A DNA stretch of 18,818 bases from Roseomonas xinghualingensis (GTDB taxonomy: Bacteria; Pseudomonadota; Alphaproteobacteria; Acetobacterales; Acetobacteraceae): contig NZ_JAOXLP010000049.1 of NCBI RefSeq assembly GCF_025791835.1, positions 1 through 18,818 of the forward strand, written 5' to 3'. The position numbers and the translations under genes were made by a program. Below are positions 4,806 through 17,353 of this stretch, piece after piece. The notes under the pieces were generated by a model, which saw nothing but the letters and a program-made list of their open reading frames with translations, did not search any database and was not told where the DNA came from. Position 1 is the first letter of the stretch; each line of letters starts with the position of its first letter.

Positions 4806-4821
4806 AGCGGTCCCGACAGCT

Positions 4822-5226
4822 TCACGCCGTCCGTGCCTCCTGCATAGCGGCTCGGGCGGCGTCCGCCAGGAACGCTGACCTGGTCTTGCCCTGCTGCTTG
4901 GCAAAGGTGTCCACTGCCGCCAGCAAGCCTTCCTCCATGGTGATGTTCGCACGCACCGCGCGGCCGGGCAGCTCGGCACGCACCAGAATACGGGCGAACT
5001 CCTCCACCTCTGGATCGCGCTCAACACGCTCCAGCGGAGTGGGATCGGGAATGGCATCGCCGTCCTCGATCATGCCGCGCAGATGCAGGGCCAGGGCCTC
5101 TTCGGCCTGGCGCGCGGCATCCTCGGTGGTCGCGCCATGGGCAACACACCCGTCGAAGTCGGGGAAGAAGACCCCGAAGCCGTCCGAAGACTGCTCCAGG
5201 ATCGCTGGATAGTAGCGGGTCGCCAT
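4822..5226 (-). CDS. hicB: HicB family antitoxin (copy A)
   Basis: A 134-residue protein. Residues 1-50 form the HicB partial RNase-H-like fold (YYPAILEQ, then GFGVFFPDFDGCVAHGAT, then a DAARQAEEALALHL helix). Residues ~92-130 look like a ribbon-helix-helix DNA-binding domain (RAVRANITMEEGLLAAVDTFAKQQGKTRSAFLADAAR, a strand followed by two helices). HicB proteins bind and neutralise the HicA mRNase and repress their own operon. The gene lies 45 bp after hicA on the same strand with ribosome site AAGGAAAC. It is about 90% identical to the copy at 16949-17353 (13 differences of 134 by eye), far more diverged than its neighbours; the changes cluster in the helix region and the last 30 residues. 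Confidence 0.9.
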   Translation of the reverse strand: MATRYYPAILEQSSDGFGVFFPDFDGCVAHGATTEDAARQAEEALALHLRGMIEDGDAIPDPTPLERVERDPEVEEFARILVRAELPGRAVRANITMEEGLLAAVDTFAKQQGKTRSAFLADAARAAMQEARTA

Positions 5227-5271
5227 GATTAGTTTCCTTGTCGATCATCGATTGGACGGAAGCCCCGGTTC

Positions 5272-5472
5272 TCACCGGAGCTTCACGCCTGTCTGCCTCT
5301 CGATGCTCTTCACGGTTCCGATCGGAAGCTCTTTCGAGGGGTGGGGGACGGTTGCTCGTCCTCTCTTGGTCGGGTGCTTGAACTGCTTGTGGCTGCCTTC
5401 CTGAGCAACTTCGAACCACCCGTCCGCTTCGATGGCGGCGATTGCCGCCTTGCTGCTCACCGTCTTCCCCAT
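5272..5472 (-). CDS. hicA: HicA family mRNA interferase toxin (copy A)
   Basis: A 66-residue protein with a dsRBD-like HicA fold. The signature GSHKQFKHP carries the catalytic His28, followed by the VPHPSKELPIGTVKSIERQTGV block typical of the family. HicA cleaves mRNA and causes growth arrest until neutralised by HicB. The ATG at 5472 is preferred over one at 5511 because a strong ribosome site (GAAGGGG) sits six bases before it and the upstream codons overlap the promoter/operator. The toxin gene is first in the operon, as is usual for hicAB. It differs from the copy at 16667-16867 at only two residues (A/T and T/A). Confidence 0.9.
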   Translation of the reverse strand: MGKTVSSKAAIAAIEADGWFEVAQEGSHKQFKHPTKRGRATVPHPSKELPIGTVKSIERQTGVKLR

Positions 5473-5492
5473 CCAGTCCCCTTCGTTGCCTG

Positions 5493-5553
5493 TATGCGCA
5501 TTTATACGCATTGGACGGGGCTAGGGCAAGAGTTAATGCGCATAGATGCGCAT
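5493..5553 (-). promoter_or_regulatory. hicAB promoter and HicB operator (copy A)
   Basis: Four near-identical octamer-type sites (consensus ATGCGCAT) lie at 5493-5501, 5503-5511, 5535-5543 and 5545-5553. They form two pairs with 10-bp spacing, the pairs 42 bp apart. A sigma70-like promoter reading toward hicA is embedded: -35 TTGCCC (complement of 5524-5529) and -10 TATAAA (complement of 5501-5506), with a 17-bp spacer. Tandem 10-bp spaced half-sites suit a ribbon-helix-helix repressor, so HicB autoregulation is inferred. The same architecture recurs at 16585-16645. Confidence 0.7.
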
Positions 5554-5574
5554 ACATCTTCGGGGCTGATTGAG

Positions 5575-5698
5575 CCCCGGAGGTCCGCCACGCCGCCGAA
5601 GCGGTGCGGGGGCTCAGGCTGTTTGCACCAGCCCAAGCCGCACGGGTGATGACCGTGCACGGATAAACCGCCCCGCTACCTCCGGCCGGAGGCGGGGC
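5575..5698 (+). promoter_or_regulatory. Structured spacer upstream of dam (copy A)
   Basis: The spacer holds a series of hairpin-forming sequences: a GC-rich stem around 5588-5609, GGCTG/CAGCC around 5617-5633, GCACGG/CCGTGC (5640-5658) overlapping the palindrome CCGTGCACGG (5653-5662), and a 29-nt hairpin centred on CCTCCGGCCGGAGG (5670-5698) that ends 20 bases before the dam ATG. The second cassette copy keeps all of them. It could be a dam leader or attenuator, or a small RNA. No clear U-tract follows. Confidence 0.45.
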
Positions 5699-5718
5699 TA
5701 ATAGAGTTGTCCCATTCA

Positions 5719-6507
5719 ATGCTGGCAAGTCCCACACCCGCCCCCTACCTGGGCGGGAAGCGTAACCTCGCGCGCCGAGTTATCGCCCGGATTGAGGCCA
5801 TCCCGCACCGCACCTATGCGGAGCCGTTCGTAGGCATGGGCGGCGTGTTCCTGCGGCGCAGCCGCCCGGCACCAGCGGAGGTCATCAACGACCTGTCTGC
5901 CGATGTCGCAAACCTCTTCCGGATCCTCCAGCGCCACTATGTGCAGCTGATGGATACCCTGCGCTGGCAGGTCACCAGCCGGGCCGAGTTCACCCGGCTG
6001 TGCGCCGCCAACGCGGACACGCTCACCGACCTGGAGCGCGCGGCCCGCTTCCTCTACCTCCAGCGCTTGGCCTTCGGCGGGAAGGTGAGAGGCCGGACTT
6101 TCGGCATAGATCCTCGGTCGCCCGGCCGCTTCGACGTGAACAAGCTGGGGCCTCAGCTGGAGGCAATCCACGATCGTTTATCGGGGGTCGTGATCGAGCG
6201 TCTACACTATGCGGAGTTCCTGTCCCGCTATGACCGGCCTGAGACGCTGTTCTACCTGGATCCGCCGTATTTCGGGAACGAGGGCGACTATGGTGAGGAC
6301 GCCTTCAGCCGTGCCGATTTCGAACGCCTCGCTGAGGTGTTAGCGGGGCTGAAGGGCCGGTTTCTACTCTCGCTGAATGACCACCCGGAGGTGCGGCGGA
6401 TCTTCGCGGGCTTCCAGATCGAGGAGGTCGATGTGACCTACACGGTTGGGTCGCGTATCGGCTGCGGGGCGCGGCGCGGGGAGGTTCTGATCAGCGGTCC
6501 CGCATGA
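5719..6507 (+). CDS. dam: DNA adenine N6-methyltransferase, D12 class (copy A)
   Basis: A 262-residue D12-class adenine methylase. Visible motifs are the N-terminal PYLGGKR (residues 9-15), the SAM-binding motif AEPFVGMGG (34-42), NDLS with the ribose-contacting acidic residue (57-60), the catalytic DPPY (181-184) and the target-recognition region between. It transfers methyl from S-adenosylmethionine to adenine in DNA, in this family commonly GATC, but specificity cannot be read here. No restriction endonuclease is adjacent, so this is an orphan phage-type enzyme that may protect phage DNA or alter host regulation. The ATG at 5719 was chosen; an in-frame TTG at 5707 is possible in both copies. 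It diverges from hicA across the structured spacer and converges with the two-gene operon, 26 bp between stops. It is about 98% identical to the copy at 15632-16420. Confidence 0.9.
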   Translation: MLASPTPAPYLGGKRNLARRVIARIEAIPHRTYAEPFVGMGGVFLRRSRPAPAEVINDLSADVANLFRILQRHYVQLMDTLRWQVTSRAEFTRLCAANADTLTDLERAARFLYLQRLAFGGKVRGRTFGIDPRSPGRFDVNKLGPQLEAIHDRLSGVVIERLHYAEFLSRYDRPETLFYLDPPYFGNEGDYGEDAFSRADFERLAEVLAGLKGRFLLSLNDHPEVRRIFAGFQIEEVDVTYTVGSRIGCGARRGEVLISGPA

Positions 6508-6533
6508 CTGCTGGCAGTTACCGTGCCTGGGGA

Positions 6534-6779
6534 TCAATCTTCCCGCAGGTGCACGGTCAGTCCGAATGCCTCTGCCATCTCGAGCAACGCTGCGACCTCT
6601 TCGTCGCAGCCGTCCGCCACCTCAGGAGCCCCATGGCGCCTGAGGCTGGCGCCGAAGGCAATCGTCGCGTCGATGTCGCGCTGGATGGCGCGGGTCAGAA
6701 GGGCGCCGTGCTGCTCGGTCAGGACAAACATGTCCGAACTGCCAGGTGCAGCGGCGTGGGACTGGCGCACCTGGCTCAT
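6534..6779 (-). CDS. Cassette protein of unknown function, 81 residues (copy A)
   Basis: An 81-residue acidic, mostly helical protein that I do not recognise. The first ~15 residues are polar and low in structure, then helices span SDMFVLTEQHGALLTRAIQR and, near the C-terminus, EEVAALLEMAEAFGLTVHLRED. It has no Cys motif, signal peptide or membrane segment. Its ATG overlaps the stop of the upstream 117-residue gene (ATGA on the - strand, 6776-6779), so the two are translationally coupled and their products probably act together. It is nearly invariant between the two copies: one residue change (V4/E4), and four of five nucleotide differences by eye are silent, which implies purifying selection or recent exchange. 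Confidence 0.7.
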   Translation of the reverse strand: MSQVRQSHAAAPGSSDMFVLTEQHGALLTRAIQRDIDATIAFGASLRRHGAPEVADGCDEEVAALLEMAEAFGLTVHLRED

Positions 6780-7129
6780 GCCGCAACCGGCATCGCCAGG
6801 TGCTGCGAGAAGGCATCGCGCACGGCCGCCATCGCCCTGGCGGCGTTCTCGGCCGCGCGCCGGGCCGCCTTCTCGGTGCTCTCCACCTCATCGATCGCCT
6901 CGGCGGCTGCCTCCGCGCTCTCGGCGAACCCGTCGCGCATCTCCTCCAGCCATTCCTGTACCTGCTCGGCGTCGCCCTGCTCGCGCAGGGTGGCCACCAC
7001 GGCATCCACCTGCCGCACCATACGGTCGGGCGTGGCGCCGCGGGCCATGGCCTCCATAAGGCGGGCCATCGCGGCACGCTGTGGAGACGAGGCGCGCTTG
7101 GGTGTAGGAGAGCTGGGCTGGCGGGCCAT
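6776..7129 (-). CDS. Cassette protein of unknown function, 117 residues, Ala-rich helical (copy A)
   Basis: A 117-residue, strongly helical Ala/Glu/Arg-rich protein of unknown family. Residues ~1-17 are Pro/Ser/Arg-rich, then come helix-forming SPQRAAMARLMEAMARG, DRMVRQVDAVVATLREQG and EQVQEWLEEMRDGF segments, and a long Ala/Glu coiled-coil-like helix from ~70 to 112. It is the first gene of a two-gene operon with the 81-residue gene. The first ~12 residues differ from the counterpart at 15031-15363, whereas the rest has only three substitutions, so the homology breakpoint falls in the N-terminus. No nucleic-acid-binding or enzymatic motif is visible. A helical partner of the downstream protein, or a small phage-encoded inhibitor, are possibilities without direct support. 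Confidence 0.68.
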   Translation of the reverse strand: MARQPSSPTPKRASSPQRAAMARLMEAMARGATPDRMVRQVDAVVATLREQGDAEQVQEWLEEMRDGFAESAEAAAEAIDEVESTEKAARRAAENAARAMAAVRDAFSQHLAMPVAA

Positions 7130-7188
7130 GCATGGGTCCTTCAGTGGAGTCGTCCCATTCCGTAGCTCATGTTTCCATTATGTTCTAG

Positions 7189-7663
7189 TTCGACGGAGAG
7201 GCAGAGCCCCTCCCCTGCCCTTTTTTTGCGTCCCACTATAGCTACTCACTCGGCCGGGTAATGGACCGGGTAACAGAAGGAACGGCGCGATCTGCCAAGT
7301 AGAAATTTCAACGGACTAGGGCCTAAAAAATATAGACACCCTCTCCGCCAGCCCCCAAAGCATCAGCCGCGGTCCATGCCGCCCTCAGTTCCGCGTCACC
7401 GCCAATGGCGCAGATCGGTGGTGTTTGTGGCGAAGGCCTCCAGGCGGGCACGCAATTGGCGCCACCTCCGCACGAGATCATGCGCTTGGTTTTCTGCCGG
7501 TTACCCGGAGACACTGAGAACTCCTCCGATCGCCGCCACAGGCGTGACAAAGGCGTGCCCAACCCCAGCCTGCCCTCAGAACGCTCGGATTACGGTCAGG
7601 CCGGATACGCGGGGCTTCCACCCTCCCCGCCTGACTGCCTTGTAGGCAGAGCCCCCCCATGTC
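7189..7663. other. Gene-free junction between cassette copy A and host genes
   Basis: I find no convincing gene in this stretch. It has lower G+C than its surroundings, a T7 run (7221-7227) after a weak GGCAG/CTGCC stem, and two CCGGGTA sites (7254-7260, 7266-7272) like those before the integrase at 13708. Open frames over 7376-7645 lack coding character. The region is probably the end of prophage A or debris at its junction. No integrase, tRNA or clear attachment core is visible. Confidence 0.5.
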
Positions 7664-7710
7664 ATGTTTCAGGACATTGGCAAGCGAACTGTCGTGAAAG
7701 AGGACATTTT
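7660..7710 (+). promoter_or_regulatory. Direct repeats at the start of the Xre-type gene
   Basis: Two similar 21-mers, TGTCATGTTTCAGGACATTGG (7660-7680) and TGTCGTGAAAGAGGACATTTT (7690-7710), share TGTC-TG and AGGACATT and are exactly 30 bp apart. They overlap the first codons of the regulator gene. They may be an autoregulatory operator, or may show that the true start is further downstream, for example GTG at 7694. Confidence 0.35.
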
Positions 7711-7969
7711 GCCCGCGCAGCTCCGGGCAGCGCGGGCTCTGGTGGATTGGAGCCGCGAGGACCTGGCGGCTGCAGCGAAAACGACAACCCGCACGCTGGC
7801 CCGCATCGAGGCTGGCGAGACAATGCCGCGCAGTTCCACGCTTGCCGCTATCCGCGGCGCTTTGGAGGCGGCCGGCGTCATCTTCGTGGCCGAGAACGGC
7901 GAAGGGCCCGGCGTGCGTCTGCACAAGACGACCCGCGCACCATACATACATAGTTCAGAGGGAGATTGA
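7664..7969 (+). CDS. Xre-family helix-turn-helix regulator
   Basis: A 101-residue protein with a compact Xre/Cro-type HTH at residues ~18-72. PAQLRAARALVDWSREDLA is followed by the recognition helix region TTTRTLARIEAGETMPRSSTLAAIRGALEAAGV, then a short VIFVAENGEGPGVRL tail. This tail is common in small single-domain regulators of alphaproteobacteria. It presumably binds DNA as a dimer. The ATG at 7664 lacks a ribosome site. A GTG at 7694 would start just before the conserved PAQLRAAR block and is a reasonable alternative. The next small gene begins 2 bp after the stop, suggesting co-transcription. It could be a host gene or a prophage-border regulator. Confidence 0.75.
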   Translation: MFQDIGKRTVVKEDILPAQLRAARALVDWSREDLAAAAKTTTRTLARIEAGETMPRSSTLAAIRGALEAAGVIFVAENGEGPGVRLHKTTRAPYIHSSEGD

Positions 7970-7971
7970 AT

Positions 7972-8139
7972 TTGCGGAAGCCGAACTACGGACAGGATCG
8001 CGCCCAGCGCGAGCGGGACAAGGCTGCGAAGGCTCAAGCCAAGGAGCAGAAGAGGCTGGCCCAGAAGGAAGCGAAGCTGGGCATGCCGGCGGAGCACCAG
8101 GAGGGTGGGCCGGAAAACGGCGAGGAGAGGGCTGAGTGA
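7972..8139 (+). CDS. Small conserved basic KPNY-type protein
   Basis: A 55-residue lysine/arginine/glutamate-rich peptide. It begins with TTG at 7972, preceded by a good ribosome site (GAGGGAG, 7958-7964). The N-terminus reads MRKPNYGQDRAQRERDKAAK, and the middle is a charged helix of alternating K, E, Q and A. Small proteins with a KPNY-type start and a charged helical body recur as conserved hypotheticals in alphaproteobacteria, which is why I accept this non-ATG gene. It begins 2 bp after the regulator's stop, so the two are likely in one operon. Function is unknown; the charge suggests nucleic-acid or ribosome association, but that is speculation. Confidence 0.6.
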   Translation: MRKPNYGQDRAQRERDKAAKAQAKEQKRLAQKEAKLGMPAEHQEGGPENGEERAE

Positions 8140-8329
8140 GGTCCTGAAGTTAACCCATCGCTGAAGCCGGGGCGGGGCTGGAGCAAGGCTGAAGGAAAGC
8201 CGAACCAGGGCTCCCGGACGGAGCCAGGGAAACCAGCCTTGAGGCCATCTCGTTTGTAACGGACTGCCGCAGCCGCAGCCCTTGTGCGCGCGGCTGGCGG
8301 CAGCCCAATATCGACGAGAGGTAGGCCGC

Positions 8330-8611
8330 ATGGACGGAGTTGCTTCCGAGTGGTCCTCGGAGGGCGGCGATGCCTGGACAAAGACTCTTCCCATTGCAGC
8401 GGGAGAACCGCCACTGCTGCTCCGGGTCTATGCCAGCGCAATGGCGGATCGAGGCGATGATCCGTGGCTTTGGGAGGTCGTGGAAGCGGATTTCGGTGAC
8501 AACCTGGCCGAAGGGCGGATCGACGCGGGCGGCACTGCTACCCGGGAGACAGCCATGATGGCGGCTATCGAGCAGGCAACCGCTCATATCGGGATCTTAG
8601 CGGACGAGTAA
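8330..8611 (+). CDS. Hypothetical protein, 93 residues
   Basis: A 93-residue acidic protein from the ATG at 8330, chosen because GAGAGGTAGG precedes it; an in-frame start at 8282 lacks such a site. The order is a polar N-terminus, a strand-like segment (PPLLLRVYASAMAD), the DDPWLWEVVEADFGDNLAEGRI block and a C-terminal helix (ETAMMAAIEQATAHIGIL). No signal peptide, membrane segment or metal motif is present. I do not recognise the family. Codon use matches the surrounding host genes. It stands alone, 190 bp after the previous gene and about 40 bp before the ExoD-like gene. Confidence 0.6.
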   Translation: MDGVASEWSSEGGDAWTKTLPIAAGEPPLLLRVYASAMADRGDDPWLWEVVEADFGDNLAEGRIDAGGTATRETAMMAAIEQATAHIGILADE

Positions 8612-8652
8612 GCGCCACCCTGGGGTCACCGGCATCGGGTTCATTCCAGAGA

Positions 8653-9312
8653 ATGGCCGGAGAATGGCCGGCCGCTGGGGTGAGTGCTGAGGAAGGACGC
8701 GTGGCCGTCAGGAAGGCGCAGTTCGCTCGGGGTCCCCACATCCCGACGTCTCGTCTGCTGGAGCGCCTGGCGGCTGAGGCGCCGGACGAGGTGACGCTCG
8801 CCTGGCTGCTTGCCCAACTAGAGGAGCGATCCTTTGGGATTGTCCTCTTGCTGCTGGGGTTGCTCGGGGTGCTGCCGGCCGTGTCGGTTGGTGCGGGCCT
8901 GTTGCTCGTAATCTCGGCCTTCCAGATGATCCTGGGGCACCCCGCGCCCGTCTTTCCGCATCGGCTCGCGGAGCGCCCATTCGCGACGGCACGTCTCCGC
9001 CGTCCCCTGGCCCGGCTTATCCTCGTGCTGCGTGCACTGGAGCGGGTCATCCATCCCCGGTGGCCTATCCCATTCCAAGCGACGAAGCGCGCCGTCGGCG
9101 GAGCGGTCCTGCTGCTCGGTGCCGGCCTTTTCGTGCCCGTGCCATTGAGCAACATCCCGGTCGGCCTCACCGTCATCCTCGTTGCCTTTGCCTATCTGGA
9201 GGAGGACGGCGTGCTCCTTGCCCTGGCCGGGATGCTCGTGCTCGCGCTGCTCACCGCCGCGCTCGCAGCACTATGGGGTACGGTCGCAACCGCGGCCTGG
9301 TTCATCGCCTGA
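8653..9312 (+). CDS. exoD: ExoD-family membrane protein (exopolysaccharide synthesis)
   Basis: A 219-residue integral membrane protein resembling the ExoD family. After a polar N-terminus the family-like block RLLERLAAEAPDEVTLAWLLAQLEERSFGIVL (34-65) leads into the first hydrophobic pair (61-91). A conserved cytoplasmic-looking loop follows (GHPAPVFPHRLAERPF, 95-110, and RLILVLRALERVIHPR, 121-136), then further hydrophobic helices (147-184 and 186-218). ExoD proteins affect exopolysaccharide production and alkaline tolerance in rhizobia by an unknown mechanism. The start at 8653 is one option; a GTG at 8701 in the same frame would remove 16 residues outside the conserved part. Confidence 0.8.
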   Translation: MAGEWPAAGVSAEEGRVAVRKAQFARGPHIPTSRLLERLAAEAPDEVTLAWLLAQLEERSFGIVLLLLGLLGVLPAVSVGAGLLLVISAFQMILGHPAPVFPHRLAERPFATARLRRPLARLILVLRALERVIHPRWPIPFQATKRAVGGAVLLLGAGLFVPVPLSNIPVGLTVILVAFAYLEEDGVLLALAGMLVLALLTAALAALWGTVATAAWFIA

Positions 9313-9395
9313 AGGCGCCGCCATGAACACATGGGGGCACCCCATGATGCCGGAAACGTGTGCCGGCATCGCCGCCGCCCATGCTAGGTTGATCA

Positions 9396-9545
9396 ATGAT
9401 CCCGACCTCATCGATCGCCGTTCAGAGCTATCTCCTCCGGTGGCGCATCGCCGGGGGCGGCGTTGCCAGGGACATCCTGCCGGCTCTCGCCCTTATGGGC
9501 GGCACCCTGTTCGTGCTGATGCTGACCGGCCTGATCTCGCCATGA
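9396..9545 (+). CDS. Possible 49-residue small membrane protein
   Basis: A short frame from the ATG at 9396 to a TGA at 9543-9545. It encodes a polar, Arg-containing first half (SYLLRWRIAGGGVARDI) and one hydrophobic helix near the C-terminus (LPALALMGGTLFVLMLTGLIS), the layout of a single-pass small membrane protein. The ribosome site is weak. A second overlapping frame (9323-9574) gives plausible protein for its first ~30 residues (MPETCAGIAAAHARLIND) and then looks like an out-of-frame shadow. So a longer frameshifted ancestor is possible. No family recognised. Confidence 0.35.
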   Translation: MIPTSSIAVQSYLLRWRIAGGGVARDILPALALMGGTLFVLMLTGLISP

Positions 9546-9815
9546 ACGAAGACGGCAGGCCGCTCCTCTCCTAGCCGCGCTGGAGCCACGACTGCGTCTT
9601 TAAGATCGAGAACGAAGGCGCCGATCATTCCCCGCTCCGCTTCCAAAGGCGTGGTGCCAGGAGCCCATCCTTCTGCAGCTCCTCGTCCGTCGTGACACCC
9701 GGCCAGCGGGCACGCTACAACTGCAACGTGTGCTCGCAGGAAGTCTTTCACCGAGGTGTGACATGATAGATCCTGAGGCCAGATCGTTCTGAGCAAGCAT
9801 CGGGCTGGGAAGACT

Positions 9816-10052
9816 ATGGTGGCTGGCATGAGCAAGTACTGGGATGCGATGGAGGAAAGGCGCGCCGCCTGGAAGCGCCGCGCCGCCGGGCCAGGCTTCG
9901 GTAAATGCGCCGGATGCGGGATGCGGCTCGTCGTGCTTGGGGCAGCGGATGACCCAACCCCGGAGGCACCTTTCCAGAAGCGCGTGAGCCTCGGCTGCAT
10001 GAAGTGCCGCATCCAAACGACTCAGGCCTTCGACCCCTCCGTGGATTGGTAG
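9816..10052 (+). CDS. Small CxxC-CxxC zinc-ribbon-like protein
   Basis: A 78-residue basic protein with two CxxC knuckles, Cys31/Cys34 (KCAGCGMRL) and Cys61/Cys64 (GCMKCRIQ). This pattern is compatible with a four-cysteine zinc ribbon. The N-terminal ~28 residues are a basic helix (YWDAMEERRAAWKRRAA). A GGGAAG sits just before the ATG at 9816, and a second in-frame ATG at 9828 is equally possible. No specific family was recognised; small zinc-ribbon proteins like this can bind nucleic acid or partner proteins. It is a single gene, convergent with the MarR-like gene, with a hairpin between them. Confidence 0.6.
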   Translation: MVAGMSKYWDAMEERRAAWKRRAAGPGFGKCAGCGMRLVVLGAADDPTPEAPFQKRVSLGCMKCRIQTTQAFDPSVDW

Positions 10053-10059
10053 CCTCGGG

Positions 10060-10076
10060 CCGGGTTTTGAACCCGG
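10060..10076. terminator. Intergenic hairpin between convergent genes
   Basis: CCGGGTTTTGAACCCGG forms a 7-bp stem with a 3-base loop. It sits 8 bp after the zinc-ribbon gene's stop and 20 bp from the stop of the convergent MarR-like gene. It may act as a bidirectional terminator or mRNA 3' stabiliser. It lacks a U-tract. Confidence 0.4.
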
Positions 10077-10096
10077 TGGCCTGCCTCAGGAAGGCG

Positions 10097-10666
10097 TCAT
10101 CCGCGATACAGCGCCACCTCGCCAACCAGCGTTTCCATGACAAGCCTGAGCCCTTCATCCGTCAGGCCGATATGAACCCGCCGGCCATCCGTGCCGCGAG
10201 CATAACGATGCACAAGCTTCGCGCGCTCCAGCGCCGCCAGCTTACGCAAGGCGGTGCTCTGGGGCGCCCCTGACGAAATGCACACCGCCGAGACGGAAAT
10301 GTGCCCCTCCTCGATCCTGACGACGGCGAGATCCAGAAGCATGTCCCAGGCGGGCCAGTCGAACAGATCCTCGTACTGGGAGCGGCGGCGATCCGCGCGC
10401 AGCTTGACCAGGCGCCTTATGCGGGCCGCCAGTTCCTTTCCCTCCAGCCGTCCGGGCAGCTCTGGAACATCCACCGCCTCCGGCCGCTCCTCCACCGCCT
10501 CTCTGGCAGGCTTCGTTTCGCCATAGACCTCGAAGAACCGCGTGAAGGTATGGGTCAAGTGCTTCAGCAGCTTGATCTGGTCGCCGTTCAGGCTTGGGGG
10601 AAACGCCTGACTCAGCCGGGCATCCGCCTGTCCACCGACGGGCTGAGGAGGCTTGGGCGGGGGCAT
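10097..10666 (-). CDS. MarR-like winged-helix transcriptional regulator
   Basis: A 189-residue protein from the ATG at 10666, with ribosome site AGGAAGG eight bases upstream; a longer frame to 10831 has no such site. Residues ~1-70 are Pro-rich and helical, ~75-100 are a basic helical linker, and ~105-185 match a winged helix. There, WDMLLDLAVVRIEEGHISVSAVC is followed by SSGAPQSTALRKLAALERAKLVHR as the recognition helix, and a basic wing (YARGTDGRRVHIGLTDEG). The C-terminal layout is that of MarR-type regulators. The long N-terminal extension is unusual for MarR proteins, which average about 145 residues. Ligand and targets are unknown. The 260 bp upstream hold no gene that I can support. 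Confidence 0.68.
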   Translation of the reverse strand: MPPPKPPQPVGGQADARLSQAFPPSLNGDQIKLLKHLTHTFTRFFEVYGETKPAREAVEERPEAVDVPELPGRLEGKELAARIRRLVKLRADRRRSQYEDLFDWPAWDMLLDLAVVRIEEGHISVSAVCISSGAPQSTALRKLAALERAKLVHRYARGTDGRRVHIGLTDEGLRLVMETLVGEVALYRG

Positions 10667-10929
10667 ACGCGCAACCTTCCTGGATGAGGTGGTGCAGCGT
10701 TCTTGCAGCCGCTGCTCGCAGGCTCGGGCGGCTGGGTCCGCCGGGCGGCTCAACAGGCGCGGCGCCCAGGCATCGCAATGCCGGCACAAAAACAAGAATC
10801 TTTCCGCTGCTTCCAGGCCACCTTGCCTCACCCCCGCTGATCAGGATTCAAGGCCGTACAAGGGCTTGGTTTTGTGTTGGGAGTTGGGCCTGATTTTGCT
10901 GCCTCGCCCAAGTCATGGCGAGAAGGTGG

Positions 10930-11490
10930 TCAGGCGAAGCGGCGGCTGAGAAAGGCCGAGCCCGCACGGCCGAAGCGCCAGGGCGTCTCCGCCCCGCGCG
11001 TGATGCCGATACGGCGCCCCGTGACCACATCCACCGCCTGCCCGGGCAGCAGCGCGAAGGGAGCGCGATCCAGCGGAAGGCCATCCATGGCGTCTGTCAC
11101 CCCCAGGGCCTGGCACAGCCGCCCCGGACCGCTGCAGAGCAGCCTCGCCTTCTCCACCCCGCGCCGCTGCCGCATCACCTCGATGCCAGCAGCCGGCTCC
11201 AGCGCGCGGATGAGCACCGCGCTCCCGCGCGGCTCGGCGCCGCAGACGAAGTTGAGGCACCAGTGCAGGCCATAGGAGCGATAGACATAGGCATGGCCGG
11301 CAGGGCCGAACATCGAGGCGTTGCGGCGGGTCGGCCCGCCGAAGCTGTGCGACGCCGGATCCTCATGGTCATAGGCCTCGGTCTCGACCACCACGCCGCC
11401 TATCCCGTCGATCAGCAGCGTGGTCCCGATCAGGTCACGCGCGACCTCCGCCGCGGGGCGCCTGAAGAAGGACTGGGGAAGGGATGCCAA
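10930..11490 (-). CDS. mpg: 3-methyladenine DNA glycosylase, AAG/MPG family
   Basis: A 186-residue protein with the AAG/MPG fold. The catalytic block VETEAYDHEDPASHSF (35-50) carries Glu38, the water-activating glutamate, together with Tyr40 and His48, residues that line the base pocket in human AAG. Other family signatures are RRNASMFGPAGHAYVYRSYG (55-74, containing the intercalating-tyrosine region), LIRALEP (93-99), SGPGRLCQALG (120-130) and a GITRGAETPWRF end. It excises alkylated and deaminated purines in base excision repair. Length is typical for the bacterial family. It is transcribed on its own on the - strand and appears to be an intact host gene. Confidence 0.93.
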   Translation of the reverse strand: MASLPQSFFRRPAAEVARDLIGTTLLIDGIGGVVVETEAYDHEDPASHSFGGPTRRNASMFGPAGHAYVYRSYGLHWCLNFVCGAEPRGSAVLIRALEPAAGIEVMRQRRGVEKARLLCSGPGRLCQALGVTDAMDGLPLDRAPFALLPGQAVDVVTGRRIGITRGAETPWRFGRAGSAFLSRRFA

Positions 11491-11596
11491 GACGCCTCCG
11501 GAACGCGGTCGCGGCTCTGCTCCTAACCAGGATGCCGCGGGCGATACAGGGGCCCACCGCTATTCTCCGGACAGTCACGCCCAAGAGTGATCAGGC

Positions 11597-11788
11597 CTAG
11601 CCGCCGGCGACGCCCTGGATGACGATGCCGGTACCACCGCAATCCGGGCATTCGCCACTTTCGATGCGGCCCTTGCCCTGGCACTTCGGGCACACATCCT
11701 CGCCCGTGCCCGGCGTTCCCGGCGCCGCCTCGTCGCCTGGATTGAGGCGTGGGGCACCGCCTTCCTTCTCGGTCTTTTCCTCAGGCAT
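11597..11788 (-). CDS. Small DnaJ-type zinc-ribbon protein
   Basis: A 63-residue protein. After a charged, Pro/Gly-rich first half (residues 1-31) it carries two DnaJ-like CxxCxGxG repeats: CPKCQGKG (33-40) and CPDCGGTG (47-54). The four cysteines (33, 36, 47, 50) can hold one zinc ion as in the central domain of DnaJ. There is no J domain. Such stand-alone zinc centres are found as small conserved proteins; a chaperone- or redox-related binding role is inferred only from the motif. It lies upstream of, and is transcribed away from, nothing obvious; the rhodanese gene is next on the same strand. Confidence 0.75.
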   Translation of the reverse strand: MPEEKTEKEGGAPRLNPGDEAAPGTPGTGEDVCPKCQGKGRIESGECPDCGGTGIVIQGVAGG

Positions 11789-11871
11789 GACAGCCTCCTG
11801 GAGCAGGACTCACCGCGCACAACGTGCGTGCGCCCCGCCGCGTTGCGCGCCTGCCCGGCCAGGCGCCGCGA

Positions 11872-12422
11872 TCAGACGATCACCTTCGGCGAGATCGGAT
11901 CGCTGGCGGGGAAGGTTTCCTGCAACGCCTGATCGAGCAGCTGGTCCTGGCGGCGCTGCAGGTCCTCGCCCGGCTTCCTGGGCCCGGGCGCAGCTTCCGC
12001 GGCCTTGTCCGCATTCTGCTGCCCGCCGCTCACCATGTGCGGGGAACCGGCTTGCTCCACCTCCCCCCCTGCCGCGGCCCAGTCCTTGAAGCCGCCGAGG
12101 TTGCGCACATCGGCATAGCCGAGATCCCGCAGCGTCTTCCCGGCCAGGGCAGCCCGCCCGCCGGAGGCGCAGTAGAGGATCACCGTGCGGCCAGGCTCGA
12201 AGGCGGGATCATGGGAAGGGGAAGACGGATCCGCGCGGAACTCCAGAAACCCGCGCGGCACATGCAGCGCGCCCTTCACCTTCCCCCCCCCAGCTCGGAG
12301 GTCTCGCGCAGATCGACGACCAGCGCGTTCCGCTCGCTTATCAGGCGGGCGGCTTCCGATTGCGTCACCCTCGGCACAACGGCCTCGGCCGCGGCGAGCA
12401 TGTCCTTCACTGAACTCGGCAT
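11872..12422 (-). pseudogene. Rhodanese-domain protein, frameshifted at a C9 tract
   Basis: Two frames together make one rhodanese. From the ATG at 12422, 48 codons encode the domain start (VTQSEAARLISERNALVVDLRETSEL) and run into a stop just after a run of nine C (12283-12291, + strand). The rest of the domain continues in another frame (KGALHVPRGF, then the active-site loop ILYCASGGRAALAGKTL with the catalytic Cys, then LGGFKDWAAAGG), ending at 11872. A tract of seven or ten would restore one ~183-residue protein. Rhodaneses transfer sulfane sulfur from thiosulfate or persulfides. After the domain comes a ~65-residue tail ending with DQALQETFPASDPISP, a motif I associate with separate small alphaproteobacterial proteins. 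The break may be real, phase-variable or a base-calling error. Confidence 0.75.
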
Positions 12423-12541
12423 GGGCGTCCTTCCGTTGCTTCTGATCCGGAAGCTTAACGCATCATGCCCCCCGGATAGCTGCGCCTCCGCCTGGCCGAA
12501 CTGGATCGTCGGAAAGCGCGCATTGCTCCCCGGGCAGTGCC

Positions 12542-13183
12542 CTAGCTGCGGCAGGCCCGCTTTCCGGCCGGAACGCCGGAAGTCTGCGCCGGCCGGGCAG
12601 CGCCCCGCGCGGCAGGCACCGGGGCGCAATTCGCAGCCATCTGCCGCACGGCCCGGACCGGCGGCTTTGCGGCATGGGCGGGCGGCGCGGCCGGGCGGGG
12701 GCTTGCCGCCCGCGCTGGCAGGCGCAGTGGCTGCGCCTGCGGTGCCTTGCCCTGCGAGATGACTGCGGCCGCCCTCACCGGGGCCACGACCCTGGGCTGG
12801 ACGTTGCGGGACGGCGCCACGGGGTTCGGCACCTGCGCCGTGCGGATGCCATGCGCGGCGGCCGGCGCCCTGGAGGTCCTCTCCACCTGCCGGAAGCGCG
12901 GTTGGACTTCCTCTGTAAGGAAGCGGGCCACGTTCGGGGTGCGGATCACCTCGCGATAGGTGTCGATCGGCACGTCCAGGAACTCCTCCGCCCCGCCGCC
13001 ACGGCGGTTCATGCGGAGCGTTCCCGGGCCAGGCGGATGCCCGCACCAGCGTGCCGAGGCATAGCCGGAGGAGGTCAGGGTGGAGGTGCTGCAGGTTTCC
13101 GCGGCGCCGGATGCCAAGGCCGGCCCGGAGGCCGAAGCGGCGAGGATGACGAGGGAGACCCTCAGGAGACGAGGAAGGCCCAA
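12542..13183 (-). CDS. Secreted protein with KTSC-like domain and Pro/Ala-rich tail
   Basis: From a TTG at 13183 the protein has 213 residues. It starts with a signal peptide (GLPRLLRVSLVILAASASGPALA, cleavage after about residue 23), then a ~65-residue domain resembling KTSC (TSSGYASARW, TLRMNRRGGGAEEFLDVP, IDTYREVIRTPNVARFLTEEVQPRF). In that family a strand pair precedes a helix and an FxxxI/V motif. The remaining ~120 residues are low-complexity Pro/Ala/Arg/Val, plausibly a periplasmic or wall-associated linker. The frame is open to an ATG at 13258 that overlaps the YjbQ stop, but that extension would put 25 residues, encoded by a hairpin, before the signal peptide. The KTSC assignment is tentative. 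Confidence 0.55.
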   Translation of the reverse strand: MGLPRLLRVSLVILAASASGPALASGAAETCSTSTLTSSGYASARWCGHPPGPGTLRMNRRGGGAEEFLDVPIDTYREVIRTPNVARFLTEEVQPRFRQVERTSRAPAAAHGIRTAQVPNPVAPSRNVQPRVVAPVRAAAVISQGKAPQAQPLRLPARAASPRPAAPPAHAAKPPVRAVRQMAANCAPVPAARGAARPAQTSGVPAGKRACRS

Positions 13184-13256
13184 GAGGCGTGGCTCCGCCA
13201 AAGAATTCCACCCGCCATATCCCGGACGGCAGCGTCCGGGAAGGCGGCCACGCCTC
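13184..13256. repeat. Long stem-loop between yjbQ and the secreted-protein gene
   Basis: The outer arms GAGGCGTGG (13184-13192) and CCACGCCTC (13248-13256) pair perfectly. The stem continues with CCGCC (13195-13199) against GGCGG (13243-13247) after a 2-base bulge. Inside it, CCCGGACG-GCAG-CGTCCGGG (13221-13240) is a perfect 8-bp hairpin. One outer arm overlaps the yjbQ stop and the other abuts the proposed TTG start of the next gene, so it could terminate or regulate that transcript, or be a REP-like element. Confidence 0.65.
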
Positions 13257-13536
13257 ATGCCTCCTCCCCAAGAAGATGCAGCACCAGCTCCCGCCGGTGC
13301 GGTGTGGTCCGGTGCTCATAGAGGTAGATGCCCTGCCATGTGCCCAGCACCGGTGCTCCATGCTCCACGGGAATGGAAAGCTGGGTCTGGGTCAGGGCCG
13401 CCCGGATATGAGCTGGCATGTCGTCAGGCCCCTCCTCCTCATGCCTGTAGCGGCCGCCCCCGCCATCCGGCACCAGCCTGGCCAGGAACTCCTCCAGGTC
13501 GATCCGCACATCCGGCGAGGCATTCTCCTGCACCAT
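13255..13536 (-). CDS. yjbQ: YjbQ-family (UPF0047) protein, N-terminally truncated
   Basis: The 93 residues match the last two thirds of YjbQ: QENASPDVRIDLEEFLARLVP, YRHEEEGPDDMPAHIRAAL, LSIPVEHG, LGTWQGIYLYEHR and the LVLHLLGE end. Family members are about 135-140 residues. They start with a ~45-residue region ending in an HTSASL-type motif that holds an active-site His; all of this is missing. Upstream codons in this frame (CWINTGR) and the other frames show no trace of it. The loss coincides with the integrase side, suggesting that prophage insertion or a later rearrangement cut the gene at about 13535-13545. YjbQ proteins can show thiamine-phosphate synthase activity in vitro; this remnant is unlikely to be active. 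Confidence 0.8.
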   Translation of the reverse strand: MVQENASPDVRIDLEEFLARLVPDGGGGRYRHEEEGPDDMPAHIRAALTQTQLSIPVEHGAPVLGTWQGIYLYEHRTTPHRRELVLHLLGEEA

Positions 13537-13570
13537 CCGGCCCGTGTTGATCCAGCATCGCGCAAAGATG

Positions 13571-13593
13571 CCCGTTTTGCCCCAAAATACGGG
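13571..13593. other. Inverted repeat near the prophage B junction (candidate attachment site)
   Basis: CCCGTTTTG-CCC-CAAAATACGGG has arms CCCG/CGGG and TTTTG/CAAAA with a TA bulge. It lies 35 bp outside the truncated yjbQ and 115 bp before the integrase start, where a core or integrase-binding site would be expected. No tRNA gene is present, although P4-type integrases often use one. The other attachment site lies outside the window. Confidence 0.35.
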
Positions 13594-13644
13594 AGGGTCT
13601 GACGCTCACAGGATCCCCCGAACTCCCGCCTCACCCACAACAAT

Positions 13645-13695
13645 CCGGGTATCGACCGGGTATGATCCGGGTACAAAGGAGATGTTTCCCGGGTA
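13645..13695 (+). promoter_or_regulatory. Phased CCGGGTA repeats upstream of the integrase
   Basis: Four copies of CCGGGTA lie at 13645, 13656, 13667 and 13689, with spacing 11, 11 and 22 bp. The last is 13 bp before the integrase ATG. Helical phasing suggests cooperative binding of one protein: an integrase arm site, an excisionase site or an autoregulatory operator. Two more copies 12 bp apart are at 7254 and 7266. Confidence 0.55.
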
Positions 13696-13707
13696 TAGGA
13701 TCTCCGC

Positions 13708-14970
13708 ATGAAGCTGACCGATGCCGCCATCCGAAAGGCCAAGGCCCTCGATGGGAAGCCCATAAAGCTGGCGGATGGGGCCGGGCTCTACCTGCAGGTC
13801 ACGCCTGCCGGCGGCCGCCATTGGCGCTACCGGTACGAGATCCAGGGGCGGGAGAAGTTGCTGGCGCTGGGGAGCTACCCCGCCGTTTCTCTTGCTGATG
13901 CCAGGAAGGCCCGAGAGGCGGCCCGGGAAGACCTGGAGGCGGGCCATGATCCCTCGGTGCAAAAAAAAATTCGTCGTGCCACCGCCGCGCAGGAGGCCGC
14001 CTCCACCTTCGAGGTCGTCGCCCGCGCCTGGCACGCCCTCTACAAGCCGACTTGGTCGGAGCGCCACGCCACCGATGTGATGCGGAACCTGGAGAACGAC
14101 GTCTTCCCCGCCCTCGGGTCTCTCCCAATCAGGTCCATCACCCCGAAGATGGTGCTGACGCTCATGCGGGACGTCGAGGAGCGTTCCCCCACCACCGCGC
14201 GAAAGATGCGCCAGCAGATCAGCGCCGTCTTCGTGTATGCCATCGCGGCGGACCTCGCCGAGACCGATCCCGCCCAGACGATCCGCGGCGCCATGCAGCC
14301 TACCGGGGCTGTTCGTCACCACCCGGCTGTGACTTCGGCCCAAGGCGTTCGAGACGTGTTGGCGAAGCTGGACACCATACCAGCCCACCCCGGAACCCGC
14401 TTGGCGGCGCGGCTGCTGGCCCTCACGGCTCTCCGAAGCAAAGAACTGCGCGGCGCCACGGACGACGAGTTCGAGGGCCTGGATGGGCCAGAGCCGACAT
14501 GGACCGTGCCGGCCGAGCGCATGAAGGGCAGGAAGAACAAGCGCCGGCCCCACAAGGTCCCCCTCTCCCGCCAGGCGGTGGAGATCGTGAAGGCCGCCAG
14601 GGCACTCGCCGGCCGCCAGAAGTACCTCTTCCCTGCCGTGCGGCACTCACACCGGCAGATGAGCGAGACGACGCTGGGGCAGCTCCTGATCCGGGCCGGG
14701 TTCGAGGGCGTCCAGACGCCTCACGGCTTCCGCAGCTCCTTCAGCACCTGCATGAATGAGTTGCTCGCTAACCACCACGACCGCGCGGTTATCGATCTTA
14801 TGTTGGCGCACAAGCCGACCAACCATGTGGAAGGCATCTATAACCAAGCCGCCTACATGGCGCGGCGGCGGGAAATTGCGCAGCAGTGGGCAGACCTGAT
14901 CACTGAAGGCTTGGTGCCGCCCATGGATCTCCTGGTCCTTCCCAGGAGCGGCCTGGGACGAGAGGGCTAG
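13708..14970 (+). CDS. int: Tyrosine recombinase / prophage integrase, P4 type
   Basis: A 420-residue integrase. Residues 1-85 are the DUF4102-type arm-binding domain (LTDAAIRKAKALDGKPIKLADGAGLYLQV, then LALGSYPAVSLADARKARE). Residues ~100-195 are the SAM-like core-binding domain, and ~205-400 the catalytic domain. The catalytic set is visible: Arg243 (TALRSKELRG), Lys273 (RMKGRK), His339 and Arg342 (TPHGFRSSF), His368 (LAHKP) and nucleophile Tyr378 (IYNQAAYMARRR). It integrates and excises DNA by site-specific strand exchange. It borders the truncated yjbQ and reads toward cassette copy B, so it marks one end of prophage B. The start at 13708 is preceded by AGGA and phased CCGGGTA repeats. 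The frame is intact. Confidence 0.93.
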   Translation: MKLTDAAIRKAKALDGKPIKLADGAGLYLQVTPAGGRHWRYRYEIQGREKLLALGSYPAVSLADARKAREAAREDLEAGHDPSVQKKIRRATAAQEAASTFEVVARAWHALYKPTWSERHATDVMRNLENDVFPALGSLPIRSITPKMVLTLMRDVEERSPTTARKMRQQISAVFVYAIAADLAETDPAQTIRGAMQPTGAVRHHPAVTSAQGVRDVLAKLDTIPAHPGTRLAARLLALTALRSKELRGATDDEFEGLDGPEPTWTVPAERMKGRKNKRRPHKVPLSRQAVEIVKAARALAGRQKYLFPAVRHSHRQMSETTLGQLLIRAGFEGVQTPHGFRSSFSTCMNELLANHHDRAVIDLMLAHKPTNHVEGIYNQAAYMARRREIAQQWADLITEGLVPPMDLLVLPRSGLGREG

Positions 14971-15030
14971 AACATACTACGAACATCGCTTAGAGATCAG
15001 GGCCCGGACCACTATCGAGGAAACCCGACC

Positions 15031-15363
15031 TTGGCCCAGAAGCGTCCCCCTTCCCCCCAGCGCGCCGCAATGACCCGCCTCATGGAAGCCATGGCCCGCG
15101 GCGCCACGCCCGACCGTATGGTGCGGCATGTGGATGCCGTGGTGGCCACCCTGCGTGAGCAGGGGGACGCCGAGCAGGTACAGGAATGGCTGGAGGAGAT
15201 GCGCGACGGGTTCGCCGAAAGCGCGGAGGCCGCTGCTGAGGCGATCGATGAGGTGGAGAGCACCGAGAAGGCAGCCCGGCGCGCGGCCGAGAACGCGGCC
15301 AGGGCAATGACGGCTGTGCGTGACGCCTTCTCGCAGCACCTGGCGATGCCGGTTGCGGCATGA
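15031..15363 (+). CDS. Cassette protein of unknown function, 110 residues, Ala-rich helical (copy B)
   Basis: Counterpart of the 117-residue protein at 6776-7129, with a different, shorter N-terminus (MAQKRPPSPQRAAM) and only three substitutions over the remaining ~100 residues (A/T, Q/H and A/T). It starts with TTG at 15031 after a moderately conserved leader; an in-frame ATG at 15070 is a later alternative. The body is an amphipathic Ala/Glu/Arg helix set with no recognised motif. It lies 60 bp after the integrase stop on the same strand, so integrase read-through transcription could reach this operon, which is not the case for copy A. Confidence 0.68.
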   Translation: MAQKRPPSPQRAAMTRLMEAMARGATPDRMVRHVDAVVATLREQGDAEQVQEWLEEMRDGFAESAEAAAEAIDEVESTEKAARRAAENAARAMTAVRDAFSQHLAMPVAA

Positions 15364-15605
15364 GCCAGGAGCGCCAGTCCCACGCCGCTGCGCCTGGCAG
15401 TTCGGACATGTTTGTCCTGACCGAGCAGCACGGCGCCCTTCTGACCCGCGCCATCCAGCGCGACATCGATGCGACGATTGCCTTCGGCGCCAGCCTCAGG
15501 CGCCATGGGGCTCCTGAGGTGGCGGACGGCTGTGACGAAGAGGTCGCGGCGTTGCTCGAGATGGCAGAGGCATTCGGACTGACCGTGCACCTGCGGGAAG
15601 ATTGA
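15360..15605 (+). CDS. Cassette protein of unknown function, 81 residues (copy B)
   Basis: Identical to the copy at 6534-6779 except for Glu instead of Val at residue 4. The ATG overlaps the upstream stop (ATGA, 15360-15363), keeping translational coupling. The near-absence of amino-acid change and the mainly silent nucleotide differences indicate a functional protein, or very recent copying. Helical and acidic toward the C-terminus; no known family recognised. Confidence 0.7.
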   Translation: MSQERQSHAAAPGSSDMFVLTEQHGALLTRAIQRDIDATIAFGASLRRHGAPEVADGCDEEVAALLEMAEAFGLTVHLRED

Positions 15606-15631
15606 TCCCCAGGCACGGTAACTGCCAGCAG

Positions 15632-16420
15632 TCATGCGGGACCGCTGATCAGAACCTCCCCGCGCCGCGCCCCGCAGCCGATACGCGACCCAACCGTGTA
15701 GGTCACTTCGACCTCCTCGACATGGAAGCCCGCGAAGATCCGTCGCACCTCCGGGTGGTCATTCAGCGAGAGCAGAAACCGGCCCTTCAGGCCCGCCAAC
15801 ACCTCGGCAAGGCGCTCGAAATCGGCACGGCTGAAGGCGTCCTCACCATAGTCGCCCTCGTTCCCGAAATACGGCGGATCCAGGTAGAACAGCGTCTCAG
15901 GCCGGTCGTAACGGCACAGGAACTCCGCATAGTGCAGGCGCTCGATCACGACCCCCGATAAGCGATCGTGGATTGCCTCCAGCTGAGGCCCCAGCTTGTT
16001 CACGTCGAAGCGGCCGGGCGACCGCGGATCTATGCCGAAAGTCCGGCCTCTCACCTTCCCGCCGAAGGCCAAGCGCTGGAGATAGAGGAAGCGGGCTGCA
16101 CGCTCCAAGTCGGTAAGCGTGTCCGCGTTGGCGGCACACAGCCGGGTGAACTCGGCCCGGCTGGTGACCTGCCAGCGCAGGGTATCCATCAGCTGCACAT
16201 AGTGGCGCTGGAGAATGCGAAACAGGTTCGCGACGTCAGCAGATAGGTCGTTGATGACCTCCGCCGGTGCCGGGCGGCTGCGCCGCAGGAACACGCCACC
16301 CATCCCTACGAACGGCTCCGCATAGGTGCGGTGCGGGATGGCCTCGATCCGGGCGATAACCCGGCGCGCGAGGTTACGCTTCCCGCCCAGGTAGGGGGCG
16401 GGGGTTGGGCTTGTCAGCAT
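15632..16420 (-). CDS. dam: DNA adenine N6-methyltransferase, D12 class (copy B)
   Basis: A 262-residue D12-class adenine methylase with the same motifs as copy A: PYLGGKR near the N-terminus, AEPFVGMGG (SAM binding), NDLS and DPPY. Differences from copy A over the shared frame are few and conservative (A/T near the start, S/C in the EFLCRYD segment, and QI/HV and D/E in the GFHVEEVEV segment near the C-terminus). None touches a motif, so both copies should be active with the same specificity. It converges with the two-gene operon (26 bp between stops) and diverges from hicA across the structured spacer. A TTG at 16432 is an alternative start. Confidence 0.9.
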   Translation of the reverse strand: MLTSPTPAPYLGGKRNLARRVIARIEAIPHRTYAEPFVGMGGVFLRRSRPAPAEVINDLSADVANLFRILQRHYVQLMDTLRWQVTSRAEFTRLCAANADTLTDLERAARFLYLQRLAFGGKVRGRTFGIDPRSPGRFDVNKLGPQLEAIHDRLSGVVIERLHYAEFLCRYDRPETLFYLDPPYFGNEGDYGEDAFSRADFERLAEVLAGLKGRFLLSLNDHPEVRRIFAGFHVEEVEVTYTVGSRIGCGARRGEVLISGPA

Positions 16421-16440
16421 TGATGAGGACAACTCTACTA

Positions 16441-16560
16441 GCCCCGCCTCCGGCCGGAGGTAGCGGGGCGGTTTATCCGTGCACGGTCATCACCCGTGCG
16501 GCTCGGGCTGTTGCAACCAGCCTGGGCCCCCGCGCCGCTTCAGCGGCGTGGCGGACCTCC
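16441..16560 (-). promoter_or_regulatory. Structured spacer upstream of dam (copy B)
   Basis: Counterpart of 5575-5698. It keeps the 29-nt hairpin around CCTCCGGCCGGAGG (16441-16469), the CCGTGCACGG palindrome (16477-16486) within GCACGG/CCGTGC (16481-16499), the GGCTG/CAGCC stem and the CGCCGC-TTCA-GCGGCG stem (about 16533-16549). Nucleotide changes relative to copy A fall mostly in loops, bulges and outer stem positions. This supports a conserved structure but does not prove an RNA. Confidence 0.45.
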
Positions 16561-16584
16561 GGCGCTCAATCGGCCCCGAAGTTT

Positions 16585-16645
16585 TATGCACATCTATGCG
16601 CATTCAGCCTTGCCCCAACCCCGCCCAATGCGTATAAATGCGCAT
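16585..16645 (+). promoter_or_regulatory. hicAB promoter and HicB operator (copy B)
   Basis: Four ATGCGCAT-type sites lie at 16585-16593, 16595-16603, 16627-16635 and 16637-16645: two pairs with 10-bp spacing, 42 bp apart, exactly as in copy A. The promoter is -35 TTGCCC (16610-16615) and -10 TATAAA (16633-16638) with a 17-bp spacer. The inner pair overlaps the -10, so repressor binding would block polymerase. One outer site is degenerate (TATGCACAT). Confidence 0.7.
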
Positions 16646-16666
16646 ATAGACAACGAAGGGGACTGG

Positions 16667-16867
16667 ATGGGGAAGACGGTGAGCAGCAAGGCGGCAATCA
16701 CCGCCATCGAAGCGGACGGGTGGTTCGAAGTTGCTCAGGAAGGCAGCCACAAGCAGTTCAAGCACCCGGCCAAGAGAGGACGAGCAACCGTCCCCCACCC
16801 CTCGAAAGAGCTTCCGATCGGAACCGTGAAGAGCATCGAGAGGCAGACAGGCGTGAAGCTCCGGTGA
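16667..16867 (+). CDS. hicA: HicA family mRNA interferase toxin (copy B)
   Basis: A 66-residue HicA with the GSHKQFKHP signature and catalytic His28 intact. It differs from copy A at two positions (Thr for Ala in the first helix, Ala for Thr in HPAKRG). Nucleotide identity across the gene is about 99% by eye. It starts at the ATG at 16667, with AAGGGG just upstream. Longer in-frame starts overlap the operator. It is first in the operon, followed by hicB after 81 bp and then a third gene. Confidence 0.9.
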   Translation: MGKTVSSKAAITAIEADGWFEVAQEGSHKQFKHPAKRGRATVPHPSKELPIGTVKSIERQTGVKLR

Positions 16868-16948
16868 GAACCGGGGCTTCCGCCCTTCCAGCGCAACCGG
16901 GCAGGGCAATTAGGCCCAGCCTAAGTCAGGGTATAGGACCCGAAGGAA

Positions 16949-17353
16949 ATGGCGACCCGCTACTATCCAGCGATCCTGGAGCAGTCTTCGGACGGCTTCG
17001 GAGTTTTCTTCCCCGATTTCGACGGGTGCGTCGCCCATGGCGCGACCGCCGAGGACGCAGCGCGTGAAGCCGAGGAGGCTCTTGCCCTCCACATCCGCGG
17101 CATGATCGAGGATGGCGACGCCATTCCCGATCCTACTCCCCTGGAGCGCGTCGAACGCGATCCGGAGGTGGAGGAGTTCGCCCGTATTCTGGTGCGTGCC
17201 GAGCTGCCCGGCCGCGCGGTGCGGGTGAACATGACCATGGAAGAGGGCTTGCTGGCGGCGGTGGATGCCACCGCGCAGCGGCAGGGCAAGAGCCGCTCCG
17301 CGTTCCTGGCGGATGCGGCTCGCGCGGCAATTCAGGGAGCGCGCGCGGCATGA
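16949..17353 (+). CDS. hicB: HicB family antitoxin (copy B)
   Basis: A 134-residue HicB with the same two-domain layout as copy A: an N-terminal RNase-H-like antitoxin fold and a C-terminal ribbon-helix-helix (RAVRVNMTMEEGLLAAVDATAQRQGKSRSAFLADAARAAI). About 13 residues differ from copy A, several in the predicted DNA-binding half (A93V, I95M and the TFAKQQ to ATAQRQ stretch). This raises the question whether the two HicBs still cross-neutralise and cross-repress. The ribosome site is GAAGGA immediately before the ATG. Its stop overlaps the next gene's ATG (ATGA, 17350-17353). Confidence 0.9.
   Translation: MATRYYPAILEQSSDGFGVFFPDFDGCVAHGATAEDAAREAEEALALHIRGMIEDGDAIPDPTPLERVERDPEVEEFARILVRAELPGRAVRVNMTMEEGLLAAVDATAQRQGKSRSAFLADAARAAIQGARAA

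Follow-up and report, generated by a model that had tools for sequence, protein, structure and literature searches.

A long inverted repeat in Roseomonas xinghualingensis as the probable common attachment-end cassette of two prophages integrated in opposite directions

The stretch of DNA analysed here, referred to as the window, is the whole 18,818-bp contig C73 (NZ_JAOXLP010000049.1, assembly GCF_025791835.1) of Roseomonas xinghualingensis, whose draft genome amounts to 4.88 Mb in 132 contigs; it carries a long inverted repeat that a first-pass annotation took to flank a potentially invertible segment. We consider it highly probable that the repeat exists because two related phages with the same accessory cassette at their attachment ends entered the chromosome in opposite directions at sites separated by 6.2 kb (tRNA-Ser(CGA) for phage A, yjbQ for phage B), and that inversion of the DNA between the cassettes is rare and passive. 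The arrangement shows how inverted homology can originate within a few kilobases in a genome that holds several related prophages, namely by same-cassette phages integrating in opposite directions. Other contigs of the genome cited below are C98, C46, C75, C53, C64, C122, C40, C87 and C88; G005 and G011 are comparison genomes of the same genus.

The inverted copies lie at 4822-7099 (copy A) and 15040-17353 (copy B), a homology of kilobase length and far beyond chance. Alignment resolves it into a main block, 5254-7099 against 15040-16885, with 94.8% identity (96 mismatches in 1,846 bp), and a second block, 4822-5226 against 16949-17353, with 85.9% identity (57 mismatches in 405 bp); the spacers separating the two blocks differ, with 27 bp in copy A and 63 bp in copy B. 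The total is 2,251 aligned bp with 153 differences, or 93% identity overall, and the longest perfect stretches are 158 bp (6433-6590 and 15549-15706), 113 bp and 92 bp. The first-pass annotation had drawn the copies as 4822-7188 and 14967-17353, 97-99% identical over most of their length. The inverted homology is real, but similarity stops at 7099/15040, beyond which the copies have only a promoter-like motif in common, and it is this motif that led to the wider inner limits; the identity was also set too high, since, of the 17 windows (100 columns each) that make up the alignment from 5322 to 7021, 8 reach 97%. All five genes are intact, as had been said, with open reading frames (ORFs) in both copies.

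Positions 1-7352 (forward strand) form the right-hand part of prophage A, as judged from Pfam, PHROGs and comparison of attachment (att) sites. At its edge, 7337-7352 (forward strand) repeats 16 bp from the 3' end of tRNA-Ser(CGA) and is the attachment core and attR of A. When 7130-7660 was searched against the organism's own genome with E-values up to 10, 41 matches were returned, the query itself included, two of which fall on C98: 156581-156596 (16/16) and 156720-156740 (90%). The former is the 3' end of the complete tRNA-Ser(CGA) gene (C98:156505-156594), running in the same direction as 7337-7352; the latter consists of CCGGGTA repeats like those beside the integrase of B and is followed by an integrase 52% identical in amino-acid sequence to that of B. 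CCGGGTA adjoins both copies of the A core, and its two repeats at 7254-7272 (forward strand) are proposed integrase arm sites of A, similar repeats preceding the C98 integrase; the motif is not exclusive to the attachment regions, as 2 of its 8 occurrences in the window (7502 and 8539) lie outside them. A check of 15 stretches of the organism's own genome gave the 16-mer a single time, in the C98 stretch, the other 14 being without it. That prophage A lacks an integrase was considered and rejected, since one adjoins tRNA-Ser(CGA) on C98, where the far end of A would lie. With an integrase and an attachment core copied from a tRNA gene, A has the hallmarks of an integrated temperate phage, spread over two contigs, C98 and the window, that are unjoined in the assembly.

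Prophage B is represented by its left-hand part, 13536-18818, comprising the integrase, the cassette, ORF102, an endolysin and ORF164. It cuts yjbQ (UPF0047): the 3' part of this gene, without its start, occupies 13255-13536 (reverse strand), and the 5' part is at C46:17102-17200. The UPF0047 profile is matched at positions 32-116 in the window and 1-33 on C46, the C46 piece alone scoring 21.2 bits where the cut-off of the family is 27, and a UPF0047 search of the draft genome found no yjbQ copy besides these two parts. Joined, the flanks from the window and C46 align with the intact yjbQ of G005 over 427 bp without gaps at 81% identity. The attachment core, TGGTGCA, is at 13529-13535 (reverse strand) and again at C46:17196-17202; next to it are four CCGGGTA repeats (13645-13695, forward strand), the proposed integrase arm sites of B, and a tyrosine integrase (13708-14970, forward strand; PF00589, PF22022, PF13356, phrog_1). 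An integrase together with a split host gene that is intact in a relative likewise identifies B as an integrated temperate phage. The sequences show an att pair for A and another for B, an integrase adjoining one of the att sites in each case, a yjbQ gene that is split here and intact in a relative, and a common cassette.

The first-pass annotation described 7189-14966 as host genes with an integrase. Both are inside, but so are the attachment end of A (7130-7352) and the left end of B with its integrase (13529-14970), on either side of 6.2 kb of inter-prophage DNA (7353-13528), so that the segment cannot be host DNA in its entirety. By Pfam, the inter-prophage DNA encodes a helix-turn-helix protein, ExoD, a methylpurine-DNA glycosylase, a rhodanese and the 3' part of yjbQ, with a weak winged-helix match below the Pfam cut-off. 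Relatives of these genes are present in pieces in the 14 other genomes of the genus that were searched (G005, for example, has yjbQ and rhodanese together but the glycosylase on a separate contig). For 7353-10900 the matches were only short, so part of this DNA is accessory.

Judged by its genes, the repeat is the attachment-end cassette (HicBA, a Dam-type methylase and ORF117-ORF81) of two separate, related prophages. Copy A encodes a HicB-like antitoxin (4822-5226, reverse strand; PF15919), a HicA toxin (5272-5511, reverse strand; PF07927), a D12-class (Dam-type) DNA adenine methylase (5707-6507, forward strand; PF02086, phrog_56), ORF81 (6534-6779, reverse strand), which overlaps ORF117 in an ATGA, and ORF117 (6776-7129, reverse strand). 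Copy B has ORF110, of the ORF117 family (15031-15363, forward strand), and ORF81 (15360-15605, forward strand), and, assigned by alignment with copy A, the methylase (15632-16432, reverse strand), HicA (16628-16867, forward strand) and HicB (16949-17353, forward strand). Identical bases number 236/240 for hicA, 758/801 for the methylase gene, 348/405 for hicB, 241/246 for ORF81 and 299/324 of the aligned part of ORF117 and ORF110; identical residues, stop excluded, are 75/79, 260/266, 121/134 and 80/81 for HicA, methylase, HicB and ORF81. ORF81, in which 5 bases and one residue differ, has almost no relatives in a protein search. The mismatches are mostly at third codon positions (4/2/37 at positions 1/2/3 in the methylase gene, 8/5/44 in hicB), which indicates that the copies are old and under selection; a recent duplication of the repeat was rejected on the same grounds.

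Related prophages with common modules number at least four in the genome (A, B, C and D), and there are signs of more. Prophage C, on C75, resembles B: its integrase is 65% and its ORF110 93% identical in amino-acid sequence, and some 3 kb past ORF110 is an endolysin 98% identical to that of B, with an ORF164 protein at 96%; on contig C37 of G011, too, an integrase adjoins ORF110. Prophage D, on C53, resembles A in its tail-region protein (95% amino-acid identity), pectate-lyase-like protein (60%) and methylase (75%). After the methylase, near C53 6597-6620, comes a sequence that in our reading is a 3' fragment of a tRNA; a complete tRNA was not detected at these positions by ARAGORN, and no integrase was found on the contig. 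The whole cassette was seen only in A and B, and partial ones comprise ORF110 alone in C, the methylase alone in D, and methylase with ORF117 in Roseomonas rosea (DSM 14916). As far as these partial matches go, the end layouts of C and D are comparable to those of B and A, and integration by itself is then the simplest source of the orientation seen in the assembly. A and B are each equipped with a separate integrase and att pair, which fit this orientation; we infer that C98 joins the left side and C46 the right.

Of the remaining genes of A, the tail-region protein (330-1589) is named by position only and has no Pfam or PHROGs family match; the pectate-lyase-like protein (3016-4149) and the endolysin (4146-4805) were assigned by Pfam and PHROGs. 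The pectate-lyase-like protein of A and D has another relative on C88. In B, the endolysin (17662-18243, reverse strand) is followed by ORF164 (18243-18737, reverse strand), holin-like by position only and with no family match in PHROGs or NCBIfam.

RecA-mediated recombination of the two cassettes would flip roughly 7100-15039. Two prophages with long inverted homology are indeed seen here, and recA was found in the genome, as the first-pass proposal of such recombination supposes; it was also right that sides would be exchanged: the integrase of B would move across, as would an att half-site from A and one from B. The flip would set attL of B inverted relative to attR of B, and likewise for A, so that the integrase would then invert the intervening DNA and not excise it. 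Inversion of the segment is possible but probably rare, expected as a passive consequence of homology with no dedicated switch, and a minor flipped form may exist beside the orientation assembled; if it occurs, it would be a simple route to stranding two prophages at once.

A further reading, which we put forward tentatively and hold a little less than evenly probable, is that the prophages carry in the repeat a cassette under SOS control, in which ORF117-ORF81 is LexA-regulated, ORF117 representing an unnamed LexA-regulon family of the Acetobacteraceae. The direct repeat GTTC-N7-GTTC, on the other strand GAAC-N7-GAAC, is the alphaproteobacterial LexA box (PMC3323433, PMC12907096). It was noticed in alignment as a motif common to both inner edges of the repeat, upstream of ORF117/110: with one mismatch in copy A (GAACATAATGGAAAC, 7171-7185, reverse strand) and perfect in copy B (GAACATACTACGAAC, 14970-14984, forward strand). 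The latter is the sole perfect box in the window, weak proof alone given that shuffling the sequence 200 times produced such a box in 53 cases; a box is also found upstream of the genome's own recA (GAACATAATATGAAC), and a perfect one precedes ORF110 of prophage C (GAACATAAGATGAAC). ORF117 relatives occur in 33 of 249 Acetobacteraceae genomes, the window's own counted. Among 30 fetched loci (L188-L217), one each from 30 of the 33, 23 have a perfect box, in either orientation, that starts no more than 121 bp before the matched stretch, which are not independent since near-identical loci are included (L198-L200; L211-L212; L210 and L213); one further perfect box lies elsewhere in these loci, and the other 7 loci have a box with one mismatch (5, copy A among them) or none (2). 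Of six longer stretches with a family member (L218-L223, some overlapping the 30 loci), five carry a perfect box shortly before it, and another two boxes lie elsewhere; the family copy on C87, one of the six, has no box. The ORF117/110-ORF81 operon thus has a box just upstream and is a predicted member of the LexA regulon.

Searches of Pfam, PHROGs and NCBIfam gave no match for ORF117 of the window, and its 28 relatives from the protein search have no Pfam domain; the predicted model is a four-helix protein, and fold comparison of this model gave no informative match. Apparently the family occurs outside prophages too, at other chromosomal sites; in L198-L200, from the same genus, we read an aldolase-like gene beside the ORF117 relative. 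We regard the family as a candidate undescribed SOS gene under putative LexA regulation, and as a testable lead to an undescribed DNA-damage response gene. If LexA control holds, DNA damage would induce the ORF117-ORF81 operon together with RecA, just when a flip would strand both prophages.

Several observations weigh against two integrations in the orientation assembled. Both C98 matches behind the att site of A have an E-value of 2.25 and neither is significant alone, with 40 non-query matches in the search; their weight comes from placement beside a tRNA gene and an integrase. The matches of the sister prophages are partial: the corresponding place in C has neither HicBA nor a methylase, and D is without HicBA, ORF81, ORF117 and the A-type endolysin. 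The end of C98 is identical to the end of C46 over 127 bases, and C64 carries this terminal stretch at 97% over 200 bp, which means that the middles of both prophages are unassembled and the contig links are inferred. Overlaps of the same kind recur elsewhere: the end of the window shares 127 bases with C122 and with C75, and C122 has sequence in common with both contig ends (C73 and C75) as well as with the start region of C40. These 127-base overlaps suggest a short-read assembly with k = 127, a length that the 158-bp perfect stretch exceeds. Lastly, mismatches in the 1,846-bp block are not evenly spread but clustered (against 5,000 shuffles, P 0.0002 for gap variance and P 0.015 for the longest run), which may reflect old exchange, mosaic origin or uneven selection.

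The clustering would also suit a segment that is truly invertible, flipped often by RecA so that both orientations coexist in cultures and excision of the two prophages is locked and unlocked, and so would 2.25 kb of inverted homology with a 158-bp perfect stretch, the presence of recA and the precedent of inversions between prophages (PMC6379469, PMC8112680, PMC8743559). We think this unlikely. Over the 304 bp common to the A, B and C copies, the differences number 25 (A-B), 22 (A-C) and 27 (B-C), so that A and B are no closer to each other than either is to C and have not been homogenised, giving no sign of frequent exchange in those 304 bp; the only recombinase among the scanned window proteins is the phage integrase of B; and the repeats of the E. 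coli O157:H7 survey, as set out in PMC8743559, are longer and closer in sequence (at least 5 kb, 98%). A single inversion after integration, which would make the window the flipped state and the left phage really the yjbQ one, gains from the missing prophage middles and the far connections left unread, yet is very unlikely, since each type of end goes with the same type of lysis or tail genes here as in C and D. Least probable is a wrong join of the two copies by the assembler: the 158-bp perfect stretch does exceed the k suggested by the contig ends, but the copies differ at 153 of 2,251 aligned bases, and each has its own flanks and att site in layouts comparable to C and D.

Two related phages integrated in opposite directions are an ordinary consequence of polylysogeny, in which related temperate phages carry accessory genes at the attachment end, and inversion between them would be a known kind of event. 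As in polylysogeny generally, several related prophages with common modules are present, with accessory genes adjoining the attachment site; unlike familiar cases, the cassette here consists of HicBA, a methylase and an operon with a LexA-type box. Hin/Gin-type elements are site-specific invertible segments, and like them the segment lies between inverted repeats, but the repeats here are whole genes, and no dedicated invertase was found among the window proteins scanned (20 against Pfam, 10 against PHROGs; short ORFs were not all scanned), the sole recombinase in those scans having its att site in yjbQ. As in the alphaproteobacterial LexA regulon described in PMC3323433 and PMC12907096, the direct repeat stands upstream of ORF110 as it does of the organism's own recA; what differs is that ORF117 matches no family in the databases searched and that its link to LexA is predicted from the box. 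A further parallel is with E. coli O157:H7, where inversions by homologous recombination between prophages are reported (PMC8743559; Iguchi 2006 as cited in PMC6379469); inversions between prophages are an established class of event (PMC6379469, PMC8112680, PMC8743559). Here too, homologous prophage regions are inverted within one chromosome, as one block of 1,846 bp with 94.8% identity and another of 405 bp with 85.9%. With 2,251 bp aligned and 93% overall, the repeat falls below the limit of the O157:H7 survey (at least 5 kb and 98% identity), which marks the scope of that survey (PMC8743559) and is no biological minimum. In contrast to the O157:H7 inversions as described in that source, the homology here is 2.25 kb at 93%, its copies are 7.9 kb apart, the one consensus assembly shows no alternative orientation, and the segment would take in the integrase of a single prophage together with an att half-site from both.

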